Source: Candidatus Hydrogenedentota bacterium
Lineage (GTDB): Bacteria; Hydrogenedentota; Hydrogenedentia; Hydrogenedentales; CAITNO01
Reading direction: 5' to 3'
Assembly (NCBI GenBank): GCA_903902895.1
Contig: CAIUWO010000207.1
Span: forward strand, 1-47,822
DNA: 47,822 nucleotides
This document shows, piece after piece, positions 10,442-18,426 of the stretch (positions are counted from its first letter, which is position 1; the number at the start of each line of letters is the position of its first letter). The notes under the pieces were generated by a model. That model ran no database searches, had not been told where the DNA came from, and was given only the letters and a program-made list of their open reading frames with translations. Position numbers and translations under genes: made by a program.

Positions 10442-10539
10442 ATTTGTCGCCAAACGCGGGGAATGCGCCCTGCCGGAGGGGTGTTGAGACTTGGCGAATG
10501 GTTTGAGGAAACGACATTGTTTATATTGACGGGGTGTTC

Positions 10540-10548
10540 TGCTATAAT
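10540..10548 (+). promoter_or_regulatory. Extended -10 promoter for the zinc-ribbon gene
   Basis: TG-C-TATAAT (10540-10548) is a consensus extended -10 element, 67 bp upstream of the GTG start at 10615. A TTGACG at 10526 is only 11 bp away and cannot pair with it as a normal -35, so recognition would rely on the extended -10. Confidence 0.6.
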
Positions 10549-10614
10549 CCCGCGGTTTTTAGAGACAGCATGACGTGTGCTGAATAATTCAATCGATCAA
10601 GGAAAGGGATAACC

Positions 10615-11067
10615 GTGGCCATCAAGTACTATTGTCCGAAGTGCCACAAGCGTTTCGTCGAATGGGGAGCCAAGAAGTCGGGTTTCAAGTGCCCCGATGC
10701 GGAGTGCGGGCAGGAAGAACTCAAGCTTATGGACTCGACCGTGCTCATTGAGGCGGTTGAAAAGCCCAAACTCAAACGGGTCAAGCGCAAGAAGACACCA
10801 CCCGTGCCGCTCGGCGAGGATTTCGACGTGGATGAGGGCATGGTTGTCATGCCTCTCGAGGACGAAGATTTCGAGGATGTCGAGTCGGAAGAGGAAGAGG
10901 CCGAGACCGAGGAGGTCGAGGAGGTCGAGGAGGTCGTCGACGGCGTGGACGAATTTGTCGTCGTTGAGGACATCGTTGGGGTCGAGGATGTGGATGTGGA
11001 TGACACCATCGGCGACGATATCGAGGAGTTCGACGGCGACGAAATGCCGATCGAGGAGGAAATCTAG
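10615..11067 (+). CDS. Small zinc-ribbon protein with long acidic tail
   Basis: The 150-aa protein starts at GTG 10615, preceded by GGAAAGGG with good spacing. The first 35 residues form a four-cysteine zinc ribbon (CPKC at 8-11 and a CPDAEC knuckle about 20 residues later). A short very basic stretch follows (KPKLKRVKRKK), and the rest is extremely acidic, with runs such as EEEEAETEEVEEVEEV. There is no signal peptide, so it is cytoplasmic. The layout resembles the FYDLN_acid (TIGR02300) proteins of alphaproteobacteria and the acidic tail of RNA polymerase delta subunit, but homology is not claimed. A nucleic-acid-binding or polymerase-associated role is possible; the function is unknown. 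It is a single-gene unit, with its own extended -10 promoter and a strong hairpin 34 bp downstream. The minus-strand ORFs over it are shadows of the acidic repeats. Confidence 0.85.
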   Translation: MAIKYYCPKCHKRFVEWGAKKSGFKCPDAECGQEELKLMDSTVLIEAVEKPKLKRVKRKKTPPVPLGEDFDVDEGMVVMPLEDEDFEDVESEEEEAETEEVEEVEEVVDGVDEFVVVEDIVGVEDVDVDDTIGDDIEEFDGDEMPIEEEI

Positions 11068-11100: not shown

Positions 11101-11143
11101 ACGCCGCACGGCGTCCCGTTTCCCGCGGGATTCCGTGCGGCGT
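11101..11143. terminator. Bidirectional hairpin terminator
   Basis: A perfect 11-bp stem, ACGCCGCACGG (11101-11111) and CCGTGCGGCGT (11133-11143), has a loop that itself contains TCCCGCGGGA. It is followed by TGTGTTT on plus and by ATTTGTTT on minus. It lies exactly between the convergent zinc-ribbon gene and the STN-domain gene. Confidence 0.75.
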
Positions 11144-11180: not shown

Positions 11181-12023
11181 TCACTTGGCCGCCGCGCCGT
11201 TCTTCGGGTCGAGTCCGGGCGGTACCGGGCCCGCGGCCTTGCGGGCCTCCGCCTCGGTGGACGCGACCAGAATCTTGTCAAACTGCAGCGAGAATTTAAG
11301 CGCGGGAACGGCCGACCGGAACCCTTCGCGCAACAGTGTGGACAGTGTGGCGTCTTTGGGCACGGCAATGGTCAGTTTGCGCTGCGCTTCCGGGATGACC
11401 AGCGCCTCCGGGTCCACCGCAAGCACGACCTGCGCGCGGTCGGCCAGGTCCTTGAGAACGGTGAGCGCGTCCTGGTCTTTGAACTCAAGCGGGGCGCCCG
11501 GTATGGGCGCCGTCAGCTTCTTGTTAAACTCGGCGGAGATTTCCTCGGCCACCATCACATCGCTGCCGGCCGCCTTGTCAGGCTCCGCCGTCTTTGCCGA
11601 AGGCGCATTGGCCGGATTCTCATATTTGATGTCGGCCACCAGTTTGCGCGGGATTTTCATGACCGGCTGGCCCGCGGCATACTCAACCTCAACCATGCTC
11701 GGGGTAACGCGCAGCACCTTTACGCCGCGCAAAGTTTTTCCGCTCTTCAGAGAAACGGTGTCGCCCTCTATCTTAAACGTGGATGCGCTGTCCTTGCCCG
11801 CCGCCGCAGGCGCCGTTTCCTCCCCTTTTTCGCCGCTGCCCTTTTCATCGGCTGCGGCTGGGGCGTCTTCCTTCAGCGCCCCCCCCTTGAGCACATGCGC
11901 CTTGGGAGCGGCGCCTTTGTCCGCATCGGCGGGGGCGGCAACCGCGCCCGAACTCTGCGCCAGACTCGCCCCGCACAGCATCAATGCAGCCACCGCGCAA
12001 ACAAGACAGTACTTCATGCTCAT
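11181..12023 (-). CDS. Periplasmic protein with secretin/TonB short N-terminal (STN)-like domain
   Basis: The track start at 12056 is replaced by ATG 12023 (MSMKYCLVCAVAALMLCGAS), which follows an AGGGA site and starts directly with a Sec signal ending at SLAQ. The mature part of the 280-aa protein has an Ala/Gly/Lys-rich linker to about residue 80. A small beta domain follows (VSLKSGKTLRGVKVLRVTP). An STN-like domain lies at about 180-265, with 'LEFKDQDALTVLKDLADRAQVVL' and 'KLTIAVPKDATLSTLLREGF'. STN domains are found at the periplasmic entrance of secretins and TonB receptors, but no beta-barrel follows here, so this is a stand-alone periplasmic module. It lies divergently about 700 bp upstream of pilMNOPQ, whose PilQ has the same domain type. 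A role with the pilus secretin is a reasonable inference but unproven. Confidence 0.75.
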   Translation of the reverse strand: MSMKYCLVCAVAALMLCGASLAQSSGAVAAPADADKGAAPKAHVLKGGALKEDAPAAADEKGSGEKGEETAPAAAGKDSASTFKIEGDTVSLKSGKTLRGVKVLRVTPSMVEVEYAAGQPVMKIPRKLVADIKYENPANAPSAKTAEPDKAAGSDVMVAEEISAEFNKKLTAPIPGAPLEFKDQDALTVLKDLADRAQVVLAVDPEALVIPEAQRKLTIAVPKDATLSTLLREGFRSAVPALKFSLQFDKILVASTEAEARKAAGPVPPGLDPKNGAAAK

Positions 12024-12242
12024 GGAGTGTATCCCTCGCTTGTCATGACACCGCACGCATTCTAGAACCCGGCCCGGCCCATTTCAACTTTGTGCCCGGT
12101 CATCTGAAACATTAACGGTCCCGCCCCATTTCCCGCAGGGCAAGCAGGGGAGTCTTTGGAAAGATTCCGTGCGGGTTGCGGGGGGGCATGAACGTGCGGA
12201 TTGGACAACAGCCCCTGTTTCTGCCGACTGTTGAATAAACTC

Positions 12243-12726: not shown

Positions 12727-13995
12727 TTGGGTTTCACAAGGCCTAAGAAAGCGATTGGTCTGGACATCGGCACACATTCGGCGAAAGCCGTGCTGATGTC
12801 GCGTTATGGGGGGCGGTTGCGCGTTGAAAGCGCTCTTCACGTCCACCTTGACCGCAGCCTGGTCAACAATGACCCTGTCGGCGCGCAGGCGCTGGCTACC
12901 CGGGAGGCCGTGCGAACGATGCCTGCGGGCCAGTGCCTCGTGGTGGCCGCGCTTGCGGGGCAGTCCGTGGTGGTCCGCTACCCCCGCCTGACGAACGTAC
13001 CCAAAGACCAACTGGAAAATGCGGTTTCCCGCGAGGCGGCGCACAACATACCCTACGACCTGAACGATGTGTTTCTGGACTGGTCGTTGCTGGATGAGGT
13101 AAAGGGGGAGGCAACCACGCAGCAGCTTAAGGTGCTGCTCGTGGCGGCAAAACACGAGGTGATCGACTCGCGCATGCAGGTGCTGAGCGCCGCTGAGGTG
13201 CAGTGCGGCGTGCTGGGTGTCGATTCACTGGCCCTGGCCGACGCCGCCGAAGCCTGCGACTTTCTGCGGGTCGGCGAAACGGTGGCCATCGTGAACATCG
13301 GCCTGAGCGCCGCATGCGTGCATTTTATCAAGGACGGCGTCTCGAACTTCATTCGCGAGGTCAACTGGGGCGCGCGCGAGATGGTTCAGGCGATTGCCAA
13401 AGACCGCCGGTGCAGTTACGAGGACGCGGTGCGCATGTTGGAGGAATACCAGTACACGGCGCCCCCGCTTCCGGTCGCCGTGGATGCGGACGACATTCCC
13501 ATGGCCCAGGAGATTCCGGCGGCAGTGCCGGTGAGACCGGCCTCCGCCTCCTCGCTGTTGGACCCGCTTGACGATGAGGCCTTTGAAATGACAAGGGGGG
13601 CGTCGACAGGGCGCCGCCCGTCGGAACGGCCGGCCGGCGCGGACCCGTTCGCGGCGCAGGCGACGATCCAGCAGCGCGAGCTGGCCGATGTGCTCGCGCC
13701 GTCACTGACGCGCATGGCCACGGAATTCCGCCGTTCCTTCGACTTTTACGAGCATCAGCTTTACGAGCAGCCGGTGACGCGCATCATCCTGTCGGGCGGC
13801 GTCGCCACGATGGGACTGGTGCGCGAGGCGCTCCAGTACGAGCTGGGTGTTGATGATATCGAGAGTGCACGGCCCGACGAGAGCGCATTGCTGTTTGGCG
13901 ATGACGAATCCGTTCGGGACCTTCTTGAACAGCCGGCGCAGTTCATGGTGGCCATTGGCCTGGCGGCGCGCGGCATGGCCGACATTTCCGGATAG
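12727..13995 (+). CDS. pilM: Type IV pilus assembly protein PilM
   Basis: PilM is the actin-like cytoplasmic ATP-binding protein that docks onto the PilN tail and links the alignment complex to the pilus motor. The 422-aa product shows the FtsA/actin-like phosphate-1 motif (KKAIGLDIGTHSAKAV) at the start. It also shows a 'VAIVNIGLSAACVHF' phosphate-2 block, a 'FIREVNWGAREM' segment and the adenosine-site motif 'RIILSGGVATMG' near residue 350. The start is TTG 12727, with GGAG ten bases upstream; the nearby ATG at 12711 is out of frame. A Pro/Ala-rich insert of about 65 residues (around 245-315, PPLPVAVDADDIPMAQEI) interrupts the domain and is longer than expected for PilM. pilN follows after 11 bp. 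Confidence 0.92.
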   Translation: MGFTRPKKAIGLDIGTHSAKAVLMSRYGGRLRVESALHVHLDRSLVNNDPVGAQALATREAVRTMPAGQCLVVAALAGQSVVVRYPRLTNVPKDQLENAVSREAAHNIPYDLNDVFLDWSLLDEVKGEATTQQLKVLLVAAKHEVIDSRMQVLSAAEVQCGVLGVDSLALADAAEACDFLRVGETVAIVNIGLSAACVHFIKDGVSNFIREVNWGAREMVQAIAKDRRCSYEDAVRMLEEYQYTAPPLPVAVDADDIPMAQEIPAAVPVRPASASSLLDPLDDEAFEMTRGASTGRRPSERPAGADPFAAQATIQQRELADVLAPSLTRMATEFRRSFDFYEHQLYEQPVTRIILSGGVATMGLVREALQYELGVDDIESARPDESALLFGDDESVRDLLEQPAQFMVAIGLAARGMADISG

Positions 13996-14006
13996 GGCGG
14001 ACGAGC

Positions 14007-14669
14007 ATGATACGCATCAACCTGTTGCCCCATCATCTGAGGCCGATTCAGCGGACTCCCCTGCCGTACATCCTGAGCGTGCTGGTGCTCGGCGCCATGC
14101 TCGCGTTCATGGGAAGCTGGTACATGAGCGTCCACGGCGAGTATGCGGCTGTCAACAAGAAATACGCGGCGGCAAACACCGCGCTGACCAATCTGGCGCC
14201 GGTGGTCGAGGAATACAACGGCCTGGTCAAGGAAAAGCTAAAACTGCAGGACAAGGTCGAAACCATCCGGCCCATTCTGCAGGACCGGCTCCTCTGGTCG
14301 CAGTGGATTCACCAGCTGGCCAAGCTGACCCCCGAGAACATCTGGTACAAGCGCATCAAGACGATAACGCGCAAGGTCCAGATGGACCAGCCCAAGATGG
14401 GCAAGAACGGGCAGCCCGAACGCGACGCGACCACGGGGCTCGTCATTATCGAGAAGGTTCCCGTGGACAAGCAGTTCCTCGAAGTGTCGGGATACGCGGT
14501 GGAGGACGAAAGCGGCCAGAGCAGCACGGCGGCGCTTGCCGAATCCACGCGCAACGACGAGGAGTTTAGCAGGAAGTTCACCATGTCGAGTCCGCGTATC
14601 GAGGACACCGACTTTGACGGGTACGCCGTGCGCGCGTTCACGTTCGAGTACGAGGTATTGAGAGGCTGA
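14007..14669 (+). CDS. pilN: Type IV pilus assembly protein PilN
   Basis: The 220-aa inner-membrane protein begins with the family signature MIRINLLPH, the short cytoplasmic tail that binds PilM. One transmembrane helix follows (about 20-45, PYILSVLVLGAMLAFMGSW). A coiled-coil stretch (about 45-90, VEEYNGLVKEKLKLQDKV) and a periplasmic ferredoxin-like domain complete it; that domain pairs with PilO. The start is close behind pilM and the order matches the canonical pilMNOPQ cluster. There is an insert around residues 125-150 (QMDQPKMGKNGQPERD) and a polar segment near 170-195 that may be loops specific to this lineage. It is co-transcribed with its neighbours, judging from the spacing. Confidence 0.9.
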   Translation: MIRINLLPHHLRPIQRTPLPYILSVLVLGAMLAFMGSWYMSVHGEYAAVNKKYAAANTALTNLAPVVEEYNGLVKEKLKLQDKVETIRPILQDRLLWSQWIHQLAKLTPENIWYKRIKTITRKVQMDQPKMGKNGQPERDATTGLVIIEKVPVDKQFLEVSGYAVEDESGQSSTAALAESTRNDEEFSRKFTMSSPRIEDTDFDGYAVRAFTFEYEVLRG

Positions 14670-14723
14670 TTCGGCCGTTGAGCGGCGCATTTTAGGCGCG
14701 CCGTCGGAACGAGAGGCAGACTG

Positions 14724-15368
14724 ATGCTGGACATGTTAAAAGGCAAGGTGACCAGGCAGGACTGGGTCTATGTCGGCTCGATCATTGCGGTCACCGTCGT
14801 GATTGCCGGCGCCTTGTACTGGTTCGTCGTCATGGCGGAGCAGAACAAGGTCGTCGAGTGCAACCAGAAGCTGGGCACCGTCAGCCAGGAACTGGAAAGC
14901 GCGCGCAAAATTGAAAAGAACATCGCGGCCCTGCGCGATGAAAAAGTGCTGATGGCCCAGCTCTTCGACGATTTCCAGAAGCGGCTTCCGGAGGAGCGCG
15001 AAATTCCGAACCTGCTGCAGCGCTTCGAGAAGATGGGCGGCGAGATTGGGCTGCGGCTGGAAATGGTCCCCATGGACACCAAGATCGACCGGCGCATCGA
15101 AACGATTCCCTTCAAGGTCAAGGCCAAGGGGAAGTTTCATGACGTGGTGGCCTTCATAAATTTGCTTGAAAGCGACGAACGGTACCTCAAGGTGTCGGAC
15201 ATTGACATAGGCGAGGAAAAGGAAGGCGTCTCGGAGACCAATTTTGTGCTCAGCACGTTCCGATTCCTGCCGGACAAGGAAGGCGAGACCGGAGGTGCCA
15301 AGGGCGTGAACCAGCAGAACACGGCTCAGAACGCCGGGAAGAGTGCGGCGAATGGACGAGAAAAATAA
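14724..15368 (+). CDS. pilO: Type IV pilus assembly protein PilO
   Basis: The 214-aa protein has a short cytoplasmic tail and one transmembrane helix (about 15-37, VYVGSIIAVTVVIAGALYWF). A coiled coil follows (ECNQKLGTVSQELESARKIE), then a ferredoxin-like periplasmic domain ending about residue 185, with the PilO-type 'KAKGKFHDVVAFINLLESDERYLKV' strand-helix-strand. It is expected to form a heterodimer with PilN in the inner membrane and to contact PilP. The start has GAGAGGCAG upstream, and the gap from pilN is 54 bp. The C-terminal tail is Gly/Asn/Gln-rich. The pilP start lies inside its last codons, so the two are translationally coupled. Confidence 0.9.
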   Translation: MLDMLKGKVTRQDWVYVGSIIAVTVVIAGALYWFVVMAEQNKVVECNQKLGTVSQELESARKIEKNIAALRDEKVLMAQLFDDFQKRLPEEREIPNLLQRFEKMGGEIGLRLEMVPMDTKIDRRIETIPFKVKAKGKFHDVVAFINLLESDERYLKVSDIDIGEEKEGVSETNFVLSTFRFLPDKEGETGGAKGVNQQNTAQNAGKSAANGREK

Positions 15369-15978
15369 AAAGCAAACCATCTTTGCTGTGGTGCTCGGCA
15401 TCGTGCTGGTGGTCGTGCTGATCTACCAGTTCGGCCTGCTCGGTGGGTCCAAGCCGCCCGCTGCCGGTCCGGCCTCGGCCGTTGCCGCGGCGCCGGCGGG
15501 CGCGGGTGCGCCGTTCCCGGGCACCGCCGAAACGGCGGGCACCGCCGGACAGCCCCTGACCTTAGAGCACACCGACGTGGATGTCCGGGTGCTGCTGGCC
15601 AGTCTCAAGCAGGAGCCCATCAATTACAAAGATGTGCGCATCCAGCGCGATCCCATGCAGCCCCTGGTCGGCAAGGTGGCGAACCAGACCAAGGGCGCGG
15701 GACTTTCCGACCCCAACGCGCCGCCGGAACCGCCGGTCGGCGCGGGCGACACGCCACCGCCGCCCGACGCGAAACAGCAGAGAATCATCAGCGCCCAGGG
15801 TCACCGCATCACCGCCATTGTCTGGGATGCGCGCAGCCCGGTTGCCGTTGTGGATGATGAAATCGTCTCCGTGGGATACACCTACCCCGACGGGGTACAA
15901 GTGCACGCCATCGAACCCTCCCGTGTGGTCTTCAAGGTCGATGAGTCGCTTATCACCGTTGAAATGAAGGAAAAGTGA
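15352..15978 (+). CDS. pilP: PilP-like type IV pilus protein anchored by a transmembrane helix
   Basis: The 208-aa product starts at ATG 15352 (MDEKNKKQT); the track's GTG at 15343 is less likely. The start overlaps the end of pilO by 17 bp. A transmembrane helix at about 8-32 (TIFAVVLGIVLVVVLIYQFG) is followed by an Ala/Pro/Gly-rich linker. The last 65 residues form a small beta domain (ITAIVWDARSPVAVVDDEIV), as in PilP/GspC homology-region domains that contact the secretin. Classical PilP is a lipoprotein, but no lipobox is visible here, so anchoring appears to be by the helix instead. The position between pilO and pilQ supports the assignment more strongly than sequence does. Confidence 0.8.
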   Translation: MDEKNKKQTIFAVVLGIVLVVVLIYQFGLLGGSKPPAAGPASAVAAAPAGAGAPFPGTAETAGTAGQPLTLEHTDVDVRVLLASLKQEPINYKDVRIQRDPMQPLVGKVANQTKGAGLSDPNAPPEPPVGAGDTPPPPDAKQQRIISAQGHRITAIVWDARSPVAVVDDEIVSVGYTYPDGVQVHAIEPSRVVFKVDESLITVEMKEK

Positions 15979-15981
15979 ACC

Positions 15982-18426
15982 ATGCCTCAGTCTTGCCACA
16001 GGTGCATTGCGTTGGCCGCGATGTTCGGCCTGGCACTGGCCGCATTCACGGCGCAAGCCGGTAGTGCGTCCGACCAGACCGGCGGTGCGGACCGTGCCGC
16101 TCAACTGACCCGGCAATTACAGGACGTGGCCGGAGATGCAAACGCGTCCGCCACCGCGTCCGGTGCCGGCCGCAGGGGCGTCCTGCGGGAGACCCTGACC
16201 GCGGTGGCCTCTCCCGAGGGGGTGCCGTCATCAGGCACGACCACGGCGCTTTCCTCCATGGAGAGCCCCGGGAGCGTCAGCGCCGCGCTTGGGGATGCTG
16301 ACAACCCCCTTCCGAAAATTTCCCTTGAACCAATCGCTGACACATCTGAACCGCCCAGCGCCGGGGCATCCGACAACAATGGCATGCCGCAGGCTGCGCC
16401 CCCGCCAGATGGCGCGCCGGCCAGGCCCGACGACGGCAACGCGCCCCTCTTTAAGGCGCCAGGTGGCGACAAGGCGGCCGGGCCGCCGGCCAAGCCCGCC
16501 ACTGACGCCAAAGACGTGAAGAGCGGTGACGACGCCAAGGGTGGGGCGGTGGAAAACCCGGCGCCCGAACCGCCCGCGCCCCGCGCGGCGCCGCAGCCCG
16601 CCACGACCGACGCAAACGCCTCGCTGGCGACGCACCTCCGCGCGCTGATACGCGGCAGTGAGGAAGGCACGGACCCGCTCTCCAAGGGCGGTGTGACCAG
16701 CGGCGGCCAAACCGCCGCCAAGCCCGCCGCGGACGATGCGGCCGAGATGGCCGCTCCGCCCGTGCTTCCCACGGCGACCATATCCGCCGCCGCCCCTGTC
16801 GCCCAACCGGTGCCCACGCTGGTGCCGCCCGCGGCCGCGCCGAATCCCGCGCCGATACCCATGGCCAAGACCGCGCCCCTCAAGAAATTCGAGGGCGACC
16901 CACTCAACCAGGTGGTAAACATCGACTTCCGTGAAATGGAACTGACCAACGTTGTGGCCCTGCTCGCGCAGAAGGCCGACATCAATGTCATCGCCGGCAC
17001 AGACCTGCGCGGCACGGTGACCGCGAATCTTCGCAATGTTACGCTGCGTCAGGCGATGGAAACCGCCCTGCGCATGAACAACCTTGGCATGATCGAGGAA
17101 GAGCGCATCTACCGCGTGGTGTCGTACGAGGAGGCGGTGGCCGCCAACACGCGCACGGCGATGATAAAGCTGGAAACCGCCAAGGGCGAGGAAGTCAAAG
17201 AGGTTCTGAAGGAGCTCTCGGCAAACTGGCCGGACAAGGCCAACATCAGCGTTACCGTCAACAAGGGCCCCAACGTCCTCCTGCTGTCCGCCCCGAAGGC
17301 GCGGATCGATGAACTGACCGCCCTTGTCAAGGCGCTCGATGTCAGCAAGCCCGTGTTGCCGACCGTTACAGAGGCCATCTCGCTCAACTATGCAGAGCCG
17401 GAAGAAATGGTCAAGGCGCTTCAGAAGACCCTGACCCCGGGCATCGGCCAGGTCACGGGCGACAAGCGGTCGCGCCATCTGGTGGTCACGGACATGCCTG
17501 TGGTGATTGAGCAGGTCAAGGAGCTGATCAAGACGCTTGACAAGCCGGTCAAGCAGGTCATGATTGACACCATGATTGTCGACGTGTCACTGACCGATGC
17601 GGCCGACACCGGTGTGGACTGGCTGTTGGCGGCGGTAAGACACCAGAGCGCGCGCGACGCGGCCTTGGGCGGTCCCAACATCGGCAACCTGCAGGCGCTG
17701 GGCCTGGAATCGAACAACAGTGTTTTGCCCACCGCCGCCGGGTTGCTGAACTACGCCCTGCTTACCAACAATGTTGACTGGAAAGGCGTTGTAGAACTCG
17801 AGGTGCGCAACCAGAACGGGCGACTCCTGTCCAATCCGGTGGTCATGACCGTGGAAAACAAAGAGGCGGCCATCAGCATATCGCAGGAAATCCCCTACAC
17901 CGACCTGTCGCAGACCAGCAACGGCGGCTCGCAGACCAGCACCCGCTTCAAGGACATCGGCACCATCTTTACCGTCACCCCCCAGGTCACCAACGACAAC
18001 CACATTATCGCCAGACTTGAGGGCAAGGAAAGCTTTACGAACGGCGAGTTCAAGGGTGTGCCCATCGAGGACAAGCGCCAGATCGCGTCCACCATGCGCA
18101 TGTCCACCGGCCAGACCATCTTTATCGGGGGCCTGCGGAAAGGCTCGGGCACGACGTCAATCAAAAAGATTCCCATTCTGGGTGACATTCCGGTGGCCGG
18201 CTTCTTCTTCAAGACCAACCAGCAGACCCAGAAACTGCAGGATTTGCTGATATTCATCACCTGCAACGTTATCGAGGATGACGTTCCGCTGACGGACCGC
18301 CAGAAGCAGATCATCAAAGACATGAATCCCGGGGACGAGACGGATGCCTGGGGCGAGTCCATGCAGGACTATTTGCATCCCAAGGACAACAACAAAGTCA
18401 GGTTCAAGTACCGTCGCGGCGAGTAA
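15982..18426 (+). CDS. pilQ: Type IV pilus secretin PilQ
   Basis: The 814-aa protein starts 3 bp after pilP, with GGAAAAG in the pilP tail as ribosome-binding site. A Sec signal (about 1-26, ending TAQAG) is followed by about 270 residues of Ala/Pro/Asp-rich low-complexity sequence where AMIN domains would normally be. An STN domain lies at about 310-390 (VVNIDFREMELTNVVALLAQ), and two NHN/secretin_N domains at about 395-455 and 465-535. The secretin barrel domain (about 600-765) carries the signature IPILGDIPVAGFFFK. It should form the outer-membrane channel through which the pilus leaves. The C-terminal tail of about 45 residues is charged. A clear intrinsic terminator follows, closing the pilMNOPQ unit. 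Confidence 0.95.
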   Translation: MPQSCHRCIALAAMFGLALAAFTAQAGSASDQTGGADRAAQLTRQLQDVAGDANASATASGAGRRGVLRETLTAVASPEGVPSSGTTTALSSMESPGSVSAALGDADNPLPKISLEPIADTSEPPSAGASDNNGMPQAAPPPDGAPARPDDGNAPLFKAPGGDKAAGPPAKPATDAKDVKSGDDAKGGAVENPAPEPPAPRAAPQPATTDANASLATHLRALIRGSEEGTDPLSKGGVTSGGQTAAKPAADDAAEMAAPPVLPTATISAAAPVAQPVPTLVPPAAAPNPAPIPMAKTAPLKKFEGDPLNQVVNIDFREMELTNVVALLAQKADINVIAGTDLRGTVTANLRNVTLRQAMETALRMNNLGMIEEERIYRVVSYEEAVAANTRTAMIKLETAKGEEVKEVLKELSANWPDKANISVTVNKGPNVLLLSAPKARIDELTALVKALDVSKPVLPTVTEAISLNYAEPEEMVKALQKTLTPGIGQVTGDKRSRHLVVTDMPVVIEQVKELIKTLDKPVKQVMIDTMIVDVSLTDAADTGVDWLLAAVRHQSARDAALGGPNIGNLQALGLESNNSVLPTAAGLLNYALLTNNVDWKGVVELEVRNQNGRLLSNPVVMTVENKEAAISISQEIPYTDLSQTSNGGSQTSTRFKDIGTIFTVTPQVTNDNHIIARLEGKESFTNGEFKGVPIEDKRQIASTMRMSTGQTIFIGGLRKGSGTTSIKKIPILGDIPVAGFFFKTNQQTQKLQDLLIFITCNVIEDDVPLTDRQKQIIKDMNPGDETDAWGESMQDYLHPKDNNKVRFKYRRGE

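Follow-up and report, generated by a model that had tools for sequence, protein, structure and literature searches.

In a 47,822-nt stretch of DNA, an entire contig (C207) from a Candidatus Hydrogenedentota MAG with a genome of 7.6 Mb (the whole stretch is hereafter the window), we found that the gene at 10615..11067 (+) encodes a protein of 150 amino acids in which a zinc ribbon is followed by a basic patch and then by an acidic tail, and that it belongs to a protein family which, among the genomes sampled, is confined to the Hydrogenedentota and near-universal there. Being single-copy, near-universal and restricted to one uncultured phylum, the gene is likely to have a central role in this lineage. 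We tentatively regard the protein as a phylum-specific accessory factor, whose ribbon may dock on a nucleic-acid machine and whose tethered polyanion may compete with nucleic acid in a delta-like manner; this reading is possible rather than probable.

Architecture and distribution of the family

The ORF starts with GTG and ends with TAG, and a ribosome-binding site, AGGAAAGGG (10600..10608, +), is located 6 nt 5' of the start codon; a GAAAGG-type site is kept in most homologs. A sequence-only reading of the window had described a four-cysteine ribbon, a basic patch and about 90 highly acidic residues forming a charge-segregated protein. The ribbon is present in residues 1-40 (10615..10734, +) as C7-x2-C10-x15-C26-x4-C31, together with an invariant W17 and a WGA(E/K)K helix, and its four cysteines would bind zinc. 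It is followed by the basic linker KPKLKRVKRKK at residues 50-60 (10762..10794, +), recognized in the sequence and represented in the family by the motif PxLKR, and then by the acidic tail at residues 71-150 (10825..11064, +), which contains 41 D/E and no K/R. The order of ribbon, basic linker and acidic tail thus agrees with that reading, and so does the character of the tail, the length of which is about 80-83 residues instead of 90. Using AlphaFold2 with 62 sequences, residues 1-40 were predicted to be folded (pLDDT 90-95), with short strands at residues 4-6 and 13-15 and then a helix around residues 16-21, and the remainder was predicted to be disordered, with pLDDT of about 43-59 in the tail.

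The sequence-only reading had proposed a phylogenetic profile of the ribbon as a check. Searching with the N-terminal part, we detected the family in 62 of 68 Hydrogenedentota genomes, nearly always as a single copy, and a family profile built from 25 heads found its best copy at E<=2e-17 in the same 62 genomes. Among 318 sampled genomes of other phyla the profile found zero true members and three weak matches only; reading their translations, we identified an ExbD-like protein with a ribbon, a nicotinate-phosphoribosyltransferase-like fusion and an FmdB protein, none of which is a member. A scan of IMG/VR viral contigs yielded no relative of the family. The gene is a good phylum marker for the Hydrogenedentota.

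The consensus of the head is M[AP][VI]KYxCPKCxRRFVEWGAEKLGFKCPxC..EL.R.G...PxLKR. M1, K4, C7, C10, W17 and C26 are invariant among the 62 full-length members, so that three of the four Cys residues never vary, and the fourth is kept in >90% of them. Three members (L064, L070 and L079) have Arg or a Ser/Asn region in place of the fourth Cys, and the protein is otherwise conserved in them. The dN/dS values were <=0.21 wherever computable, in the head as well as in the tail; for close pairs, the tail gave 0.03-0.21 where computable and was sometimes constrained as strongly as the head. These results show purifying selection on both head and tail. Because 62 of the 68 phylum genomes carry a homolog and dN/dS is this low, the ORF is beyond doubt truly coding.

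Two further ribbon-bearing proteins were observed. One genome carries a second ribbon copy (L093; G007:C308, about 32028), which has no acidic tail and ends in another C-terminal domain with no Pfam match. A divergent similar ribbon stands at the N-terminus of the L128 protein (G045:C219), the translation of which reads as TIR-like and then as a P-loop NTPase, and from these translated features it is possibly a defence gene.

Comparison with known zinc-ribbon families

To look for homology to a known enzyme or ribosomal protein family, which the sequence-only reading had named as the finding that would speak against it, the window protein was compared with Pfam, NCBIfam, PHROGs and PDB sequences, and no family scored above its cut-off. 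When the family model was used to search PDB for similar folds, the ribbon matches obtained were all insignificant, none at E<=0.001. In the open literature searched, FYDLN and TIGR02300 are almost absent, and nothing was found for Hydrogenedentes together with zinc ribbon; the family appears undescribed. The layout, in which a basic patch and then an acidic tail follow a folded anchor, is of a kind already known, and the family is a lineage-specific variant of it.

The closest resemblance is to the FYDLN_acid proteins (PF09538/TIGR02300), for which we know of no function. These proteins contain CxxC, F-[YV]-[DE], CPxC, a basic stretch and a long D/E-rich tail in the same order as the window protein, in which C7xxC10 and C26...C31 (CxxC in many relatives) form the pairs flanking the motif and the tail is likewise long, acidic and of low complexity. 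The sequence-only reading had noted this likeness of layout and had assigned the protein to an apparently different lineage. Both points were borne out, and the likeness even extends beyond the layout: PF09538 matched nine family loci genome-wide, four of them above cut-off, 13 of the 62 members matched it at E<=0.01, and the hhalign probability between the two families was 90-95% over the ribbon. Together with the identical order of parts, these scores argue for a divergent FYDLN_acid lineage that shares the unknown function of that family and has RFVEWGAEK in place of KFYDLN. However, PF09538 gave no match on the window protein itself, and the [KR]FYDLN motif after the first CxxC was found in none of the 62 members, where RRFVEWGAEK stands instead. 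The C2-C3 spacing is 15 in the window protein but 13 in FYDLN_acid, and the PxLKR linker and the phylum differ as well. When FmdB was used as a control ribbon family in the profile–profile comparison, it reached a probability of 79-93% with our family and 93% with FYDLN. Since FmdB scores nearly the same, the FYDLN score reflects a widely shared ribbon together with acidic composition, and with the FYDLN motif missing we did not file the family there. We consider FYDLN_acid membership somewhat unlikely.

FmdB/Zn_ribbon_8 (PF09723, TIGR02605) shares the N-terminal MPxxYxCxxC start and the four-Cys ribbon with the family, but it has no WGAEK, no acidic tail and another Cys spacing. The FmdB model stayed below cut-off on the window protein (9.6 bits vs 34.4), FmdB models matched 16-23 of the 62 members weakly, and true FmdB paralogs coexist with the family in the 20 genomes tested. 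Among the NCBIfam models, the best weak match to the window protein was the zinc ribbon of TFE alpha/TFIIE alpha (TIGR00373; E 3e-4), which scored 19-20 bits against cut-offs of 149.5-180, and the winged helix is absent from the window protein. Archaeal Rpo12 also gave a weak ribbon match (E 0.06). These weak ribbon matches point towards transcription factors, yet they are far below the cut-offs and typical of any ribbon.

The tryptophan of the ribbon raises the question of a topoisomerase regulator acting as YacG does, which blocks gyrase by means of a zinc finger and a C-terminal tail. In YacG, a small zinc finger puts a tryptophan into GyrB, and the C-terminal region blocks DNA binding (PMC10886550). 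YacG (PF03884) resembles the family in its small four-Cys finger, its important Trp and its functional C-terminal tail, and the family Trp after the second Cys is invariant; however, the family tail is longer, and PF03884 matched 0 of the 68 phylum genomes with all candidates scored. That YacG is missing above cut-off from all 68 genomes could be taken to favour such a role, but since YacG occurs mostly in proteobacteria, one would expect not to find it here, and little can be read from this. A YacG-like role is very improbable.

A proposed delta-like model and the variation of the tail

We return to the delta-like model. In B. subtilis delta, the disordered acidic C-terminal region has 83 residues and a net charge of -47, and, tethered by the N-terminal domain, it displaces DNA/RNA from the main channel of RNA polymerase by competition (PMC7749165). 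Delta (RpoE of Firmicutes, TIGR04567) and the window protein both combine a folded N-terminal anchor with a disordered acidic C-terminal region, which in the window protein has about 80 residues and a charge of -41. The anchor is a winged-helix-type domain in delta but a zinc ribbon here, with no sequence relation, and TIGR04567 scored above cut-off in 0 of the 68 phylum genomes. The family is thus not a delta homolog, and the likeness is one of layout only; RNA polymerase binding and nucleic-acid displacement are properties of delta, and for the window protein they are proposed by analogy.

According to this model, the ribbon and the W-G-A-E-K helix (residues 1-40) would dock on a single conserved partner, for which RNA polymerase or another nucleic-acid machine is the most likely candidate. 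The basic linker with PxLKR and, behind it, the disordered polyanionic tail would extend into the nucleic-acid channel of the machine and compete there with DNA or RNA, or the linker would be shielded by the tail until docking. The overall action would be like that of the Gram-positive RNA polymerase delta subunit, through an unrelated anchor, the identity of the partner and the competition mechanism being suggested by this layout. Because W17 and three Cys residues are invariant among the 62 members and the fourth Cys is kept in >90%, a specific docking surface is likely, and the near-universal single copy, the invariant Trp and the conserved ribbon face indicate that there is probably a single conserved docking partner. 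If the family is a delta-like factor, anchored polyanion tails that clear nucleic acid from polymerase arose repeatedly in evolution, and testing this would also inform on the FYDLN_acid proteins found in other bacteria, which are likewise unexplained.

The tail is not acidic in every member. At least 35% D/E beyond residue 70 was found in 56 of the 62 members, K/A-rich tails replace the acidic ones in four (L056, L084, L086 and L088), L024 is almost without a tail, and L063 is intermediate. The exceptions are spread over three or more families of the order (f4, f7 and f11). Some of them could be assembly frameshifts in repeats, and in L084 an alternative frame of the tail is acidic. With four K/A-rich-tailed members and one nearly tailless, the polyanion is not essential in every species, and the basic-tailed members are the main difficulty for the delta-like model: in them, either the tail is dispensable or the head brings a DNA binder to the same place. 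An extended version, in which the RNA polymerase or core nucleic-acid machine of the Hydrogenedentota would have a near-universal subunit with a zinc-ribbon anchor that evolved separately from delta and a tethered tail mimicking nucleic acid, replaced in some genera by basic DNA-binding tails, seems to us distinctly improbable.

Transcription unit and gene neighbourhood

The sequence-only reading had also proposed a consensus extended -10 promoter and a strong terminator, and from these a high and independent expression. The promoter (10520..10548, +) is composed of a -35-like TTTATA (10520-10525) and, after a 17-nt spacer, the extended -10 element with TGC (10540-10542) and TATAAT (10543-10548); TGCTATAAT at 10540-10548 is the sole TGNTATAAT occurrence within the window. 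The exact TGNTATAAT pattern (TGnTATAAT) was found <=130 nt upstream of the start in 43 of the 62 homologs, compared to a background of 0.0009 per 130-nt window, and with one mismatch allowed in 53 of the 62, compared to 0.022. The T-rich -35 region is conserved across homologs at the identical 17-nt spacing. The upstream region supplies a phylogenetically supported housekeeping promoter consensus for the Hydrogenedentota, TTTnCT - 17 nt - extended -10 TGnTATAAT. The stricter 12-base pattern TTNTGNTATAAT occurred seven times in the 7.6-Mb genome, and the reversed-pattern control once. The six other genes carrying it are mixed; their translations read as an RRM protein, a valyl-tRNA-synthetase-like protein, a CysC-like kinase, an SDR, an AraC-type regulator and one unclear product. 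The gene of an RRM RNA-binding protein with a Gly-rich tail (L182; G000:C180, about 5132) shares the rare TTCTGNTATAAT promoter.

Downstream of the gene, a terminator-like hairpin (11101..11143, common to the convergent gene) gave a folding z = -6.2 vs shuffles, and comparable hairpins are located 3' of the gene in the two congeners as well as in several other genomes. The extended -10 promoter and the terminator hairpin are real, and with its own promoter conserved across the phylum and this hairpin the gene has its own transcription unit, as had been proposed. The codon usage lends no support to high expression: the CAI of the window gene is 0.571, below the 0.64-0.80 of seven ribosomal-protein genes of the same genome, and ribosomal codon usage on the same amino acids would yield 0.713 +/- 0.037, so the codon usage is ordinary and not ribosomal-like.

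The codon usage also bears on whether the protein is RNA- or ribosome-associated, or a chaperone of basic proteins, whose tail would neutralise ribosomal or nucleoid proteins and whose basic patch would bind RNA. Ribosomal proteins often contain small ribbons, weak ribbon matches to eL42 and aS34 were found, the basic-tailed variants would suit a nucleic-acid binder better than a mimic, and an RRM RNA-binding protein gene has the same rare promoter type. However, no match to ribosomal proteins was significant, the family gene lies outside ribosomal operons, and its codon usage is unlike that of ribosomal genes. We judge a role of this kind unlikely.

The commonest conserved neighbour, at 33 loci, is a convergent gene standing tail to tail with the family gene. 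In the window (11181..12056, -) it encodes a putative secreted protein with a signal-like N-terminus and no Pfam match, and it probably has a separate function. At 15-19 loci, mostly in family f11 (L083 and L068, for example), genes for an ECF-type sigma factor and for a small membrane protein, possibly an anti-sigma, lie directly upstream on the same strand, and HemE lies downstream in nine loci. The neighbours vary between families, with no RNA polymerase core subunit gene among the conserved ones, and do not indicate a single pathway.

Past the convergent gene, the window contains a type IV pilus operon (12727-18426, +), in which PilM was identified by Pfam and pilN/O/P-like ORFs and a secretin-like PilQ were read from the translations. 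Farther on (20722-44248, +), an ORF of 5348 aa that contains leucine-rich repeats and InlB B-type repeats precedes an Rhs-repeat protein of 2314 aa with an AHH nuclease domain at its end, and a small ORF of lower GC3 (0.57) comes next. To judge from these sequence features, the arrangement resembles an Rhs polymorphic toxin together with a candidate immunity gene.
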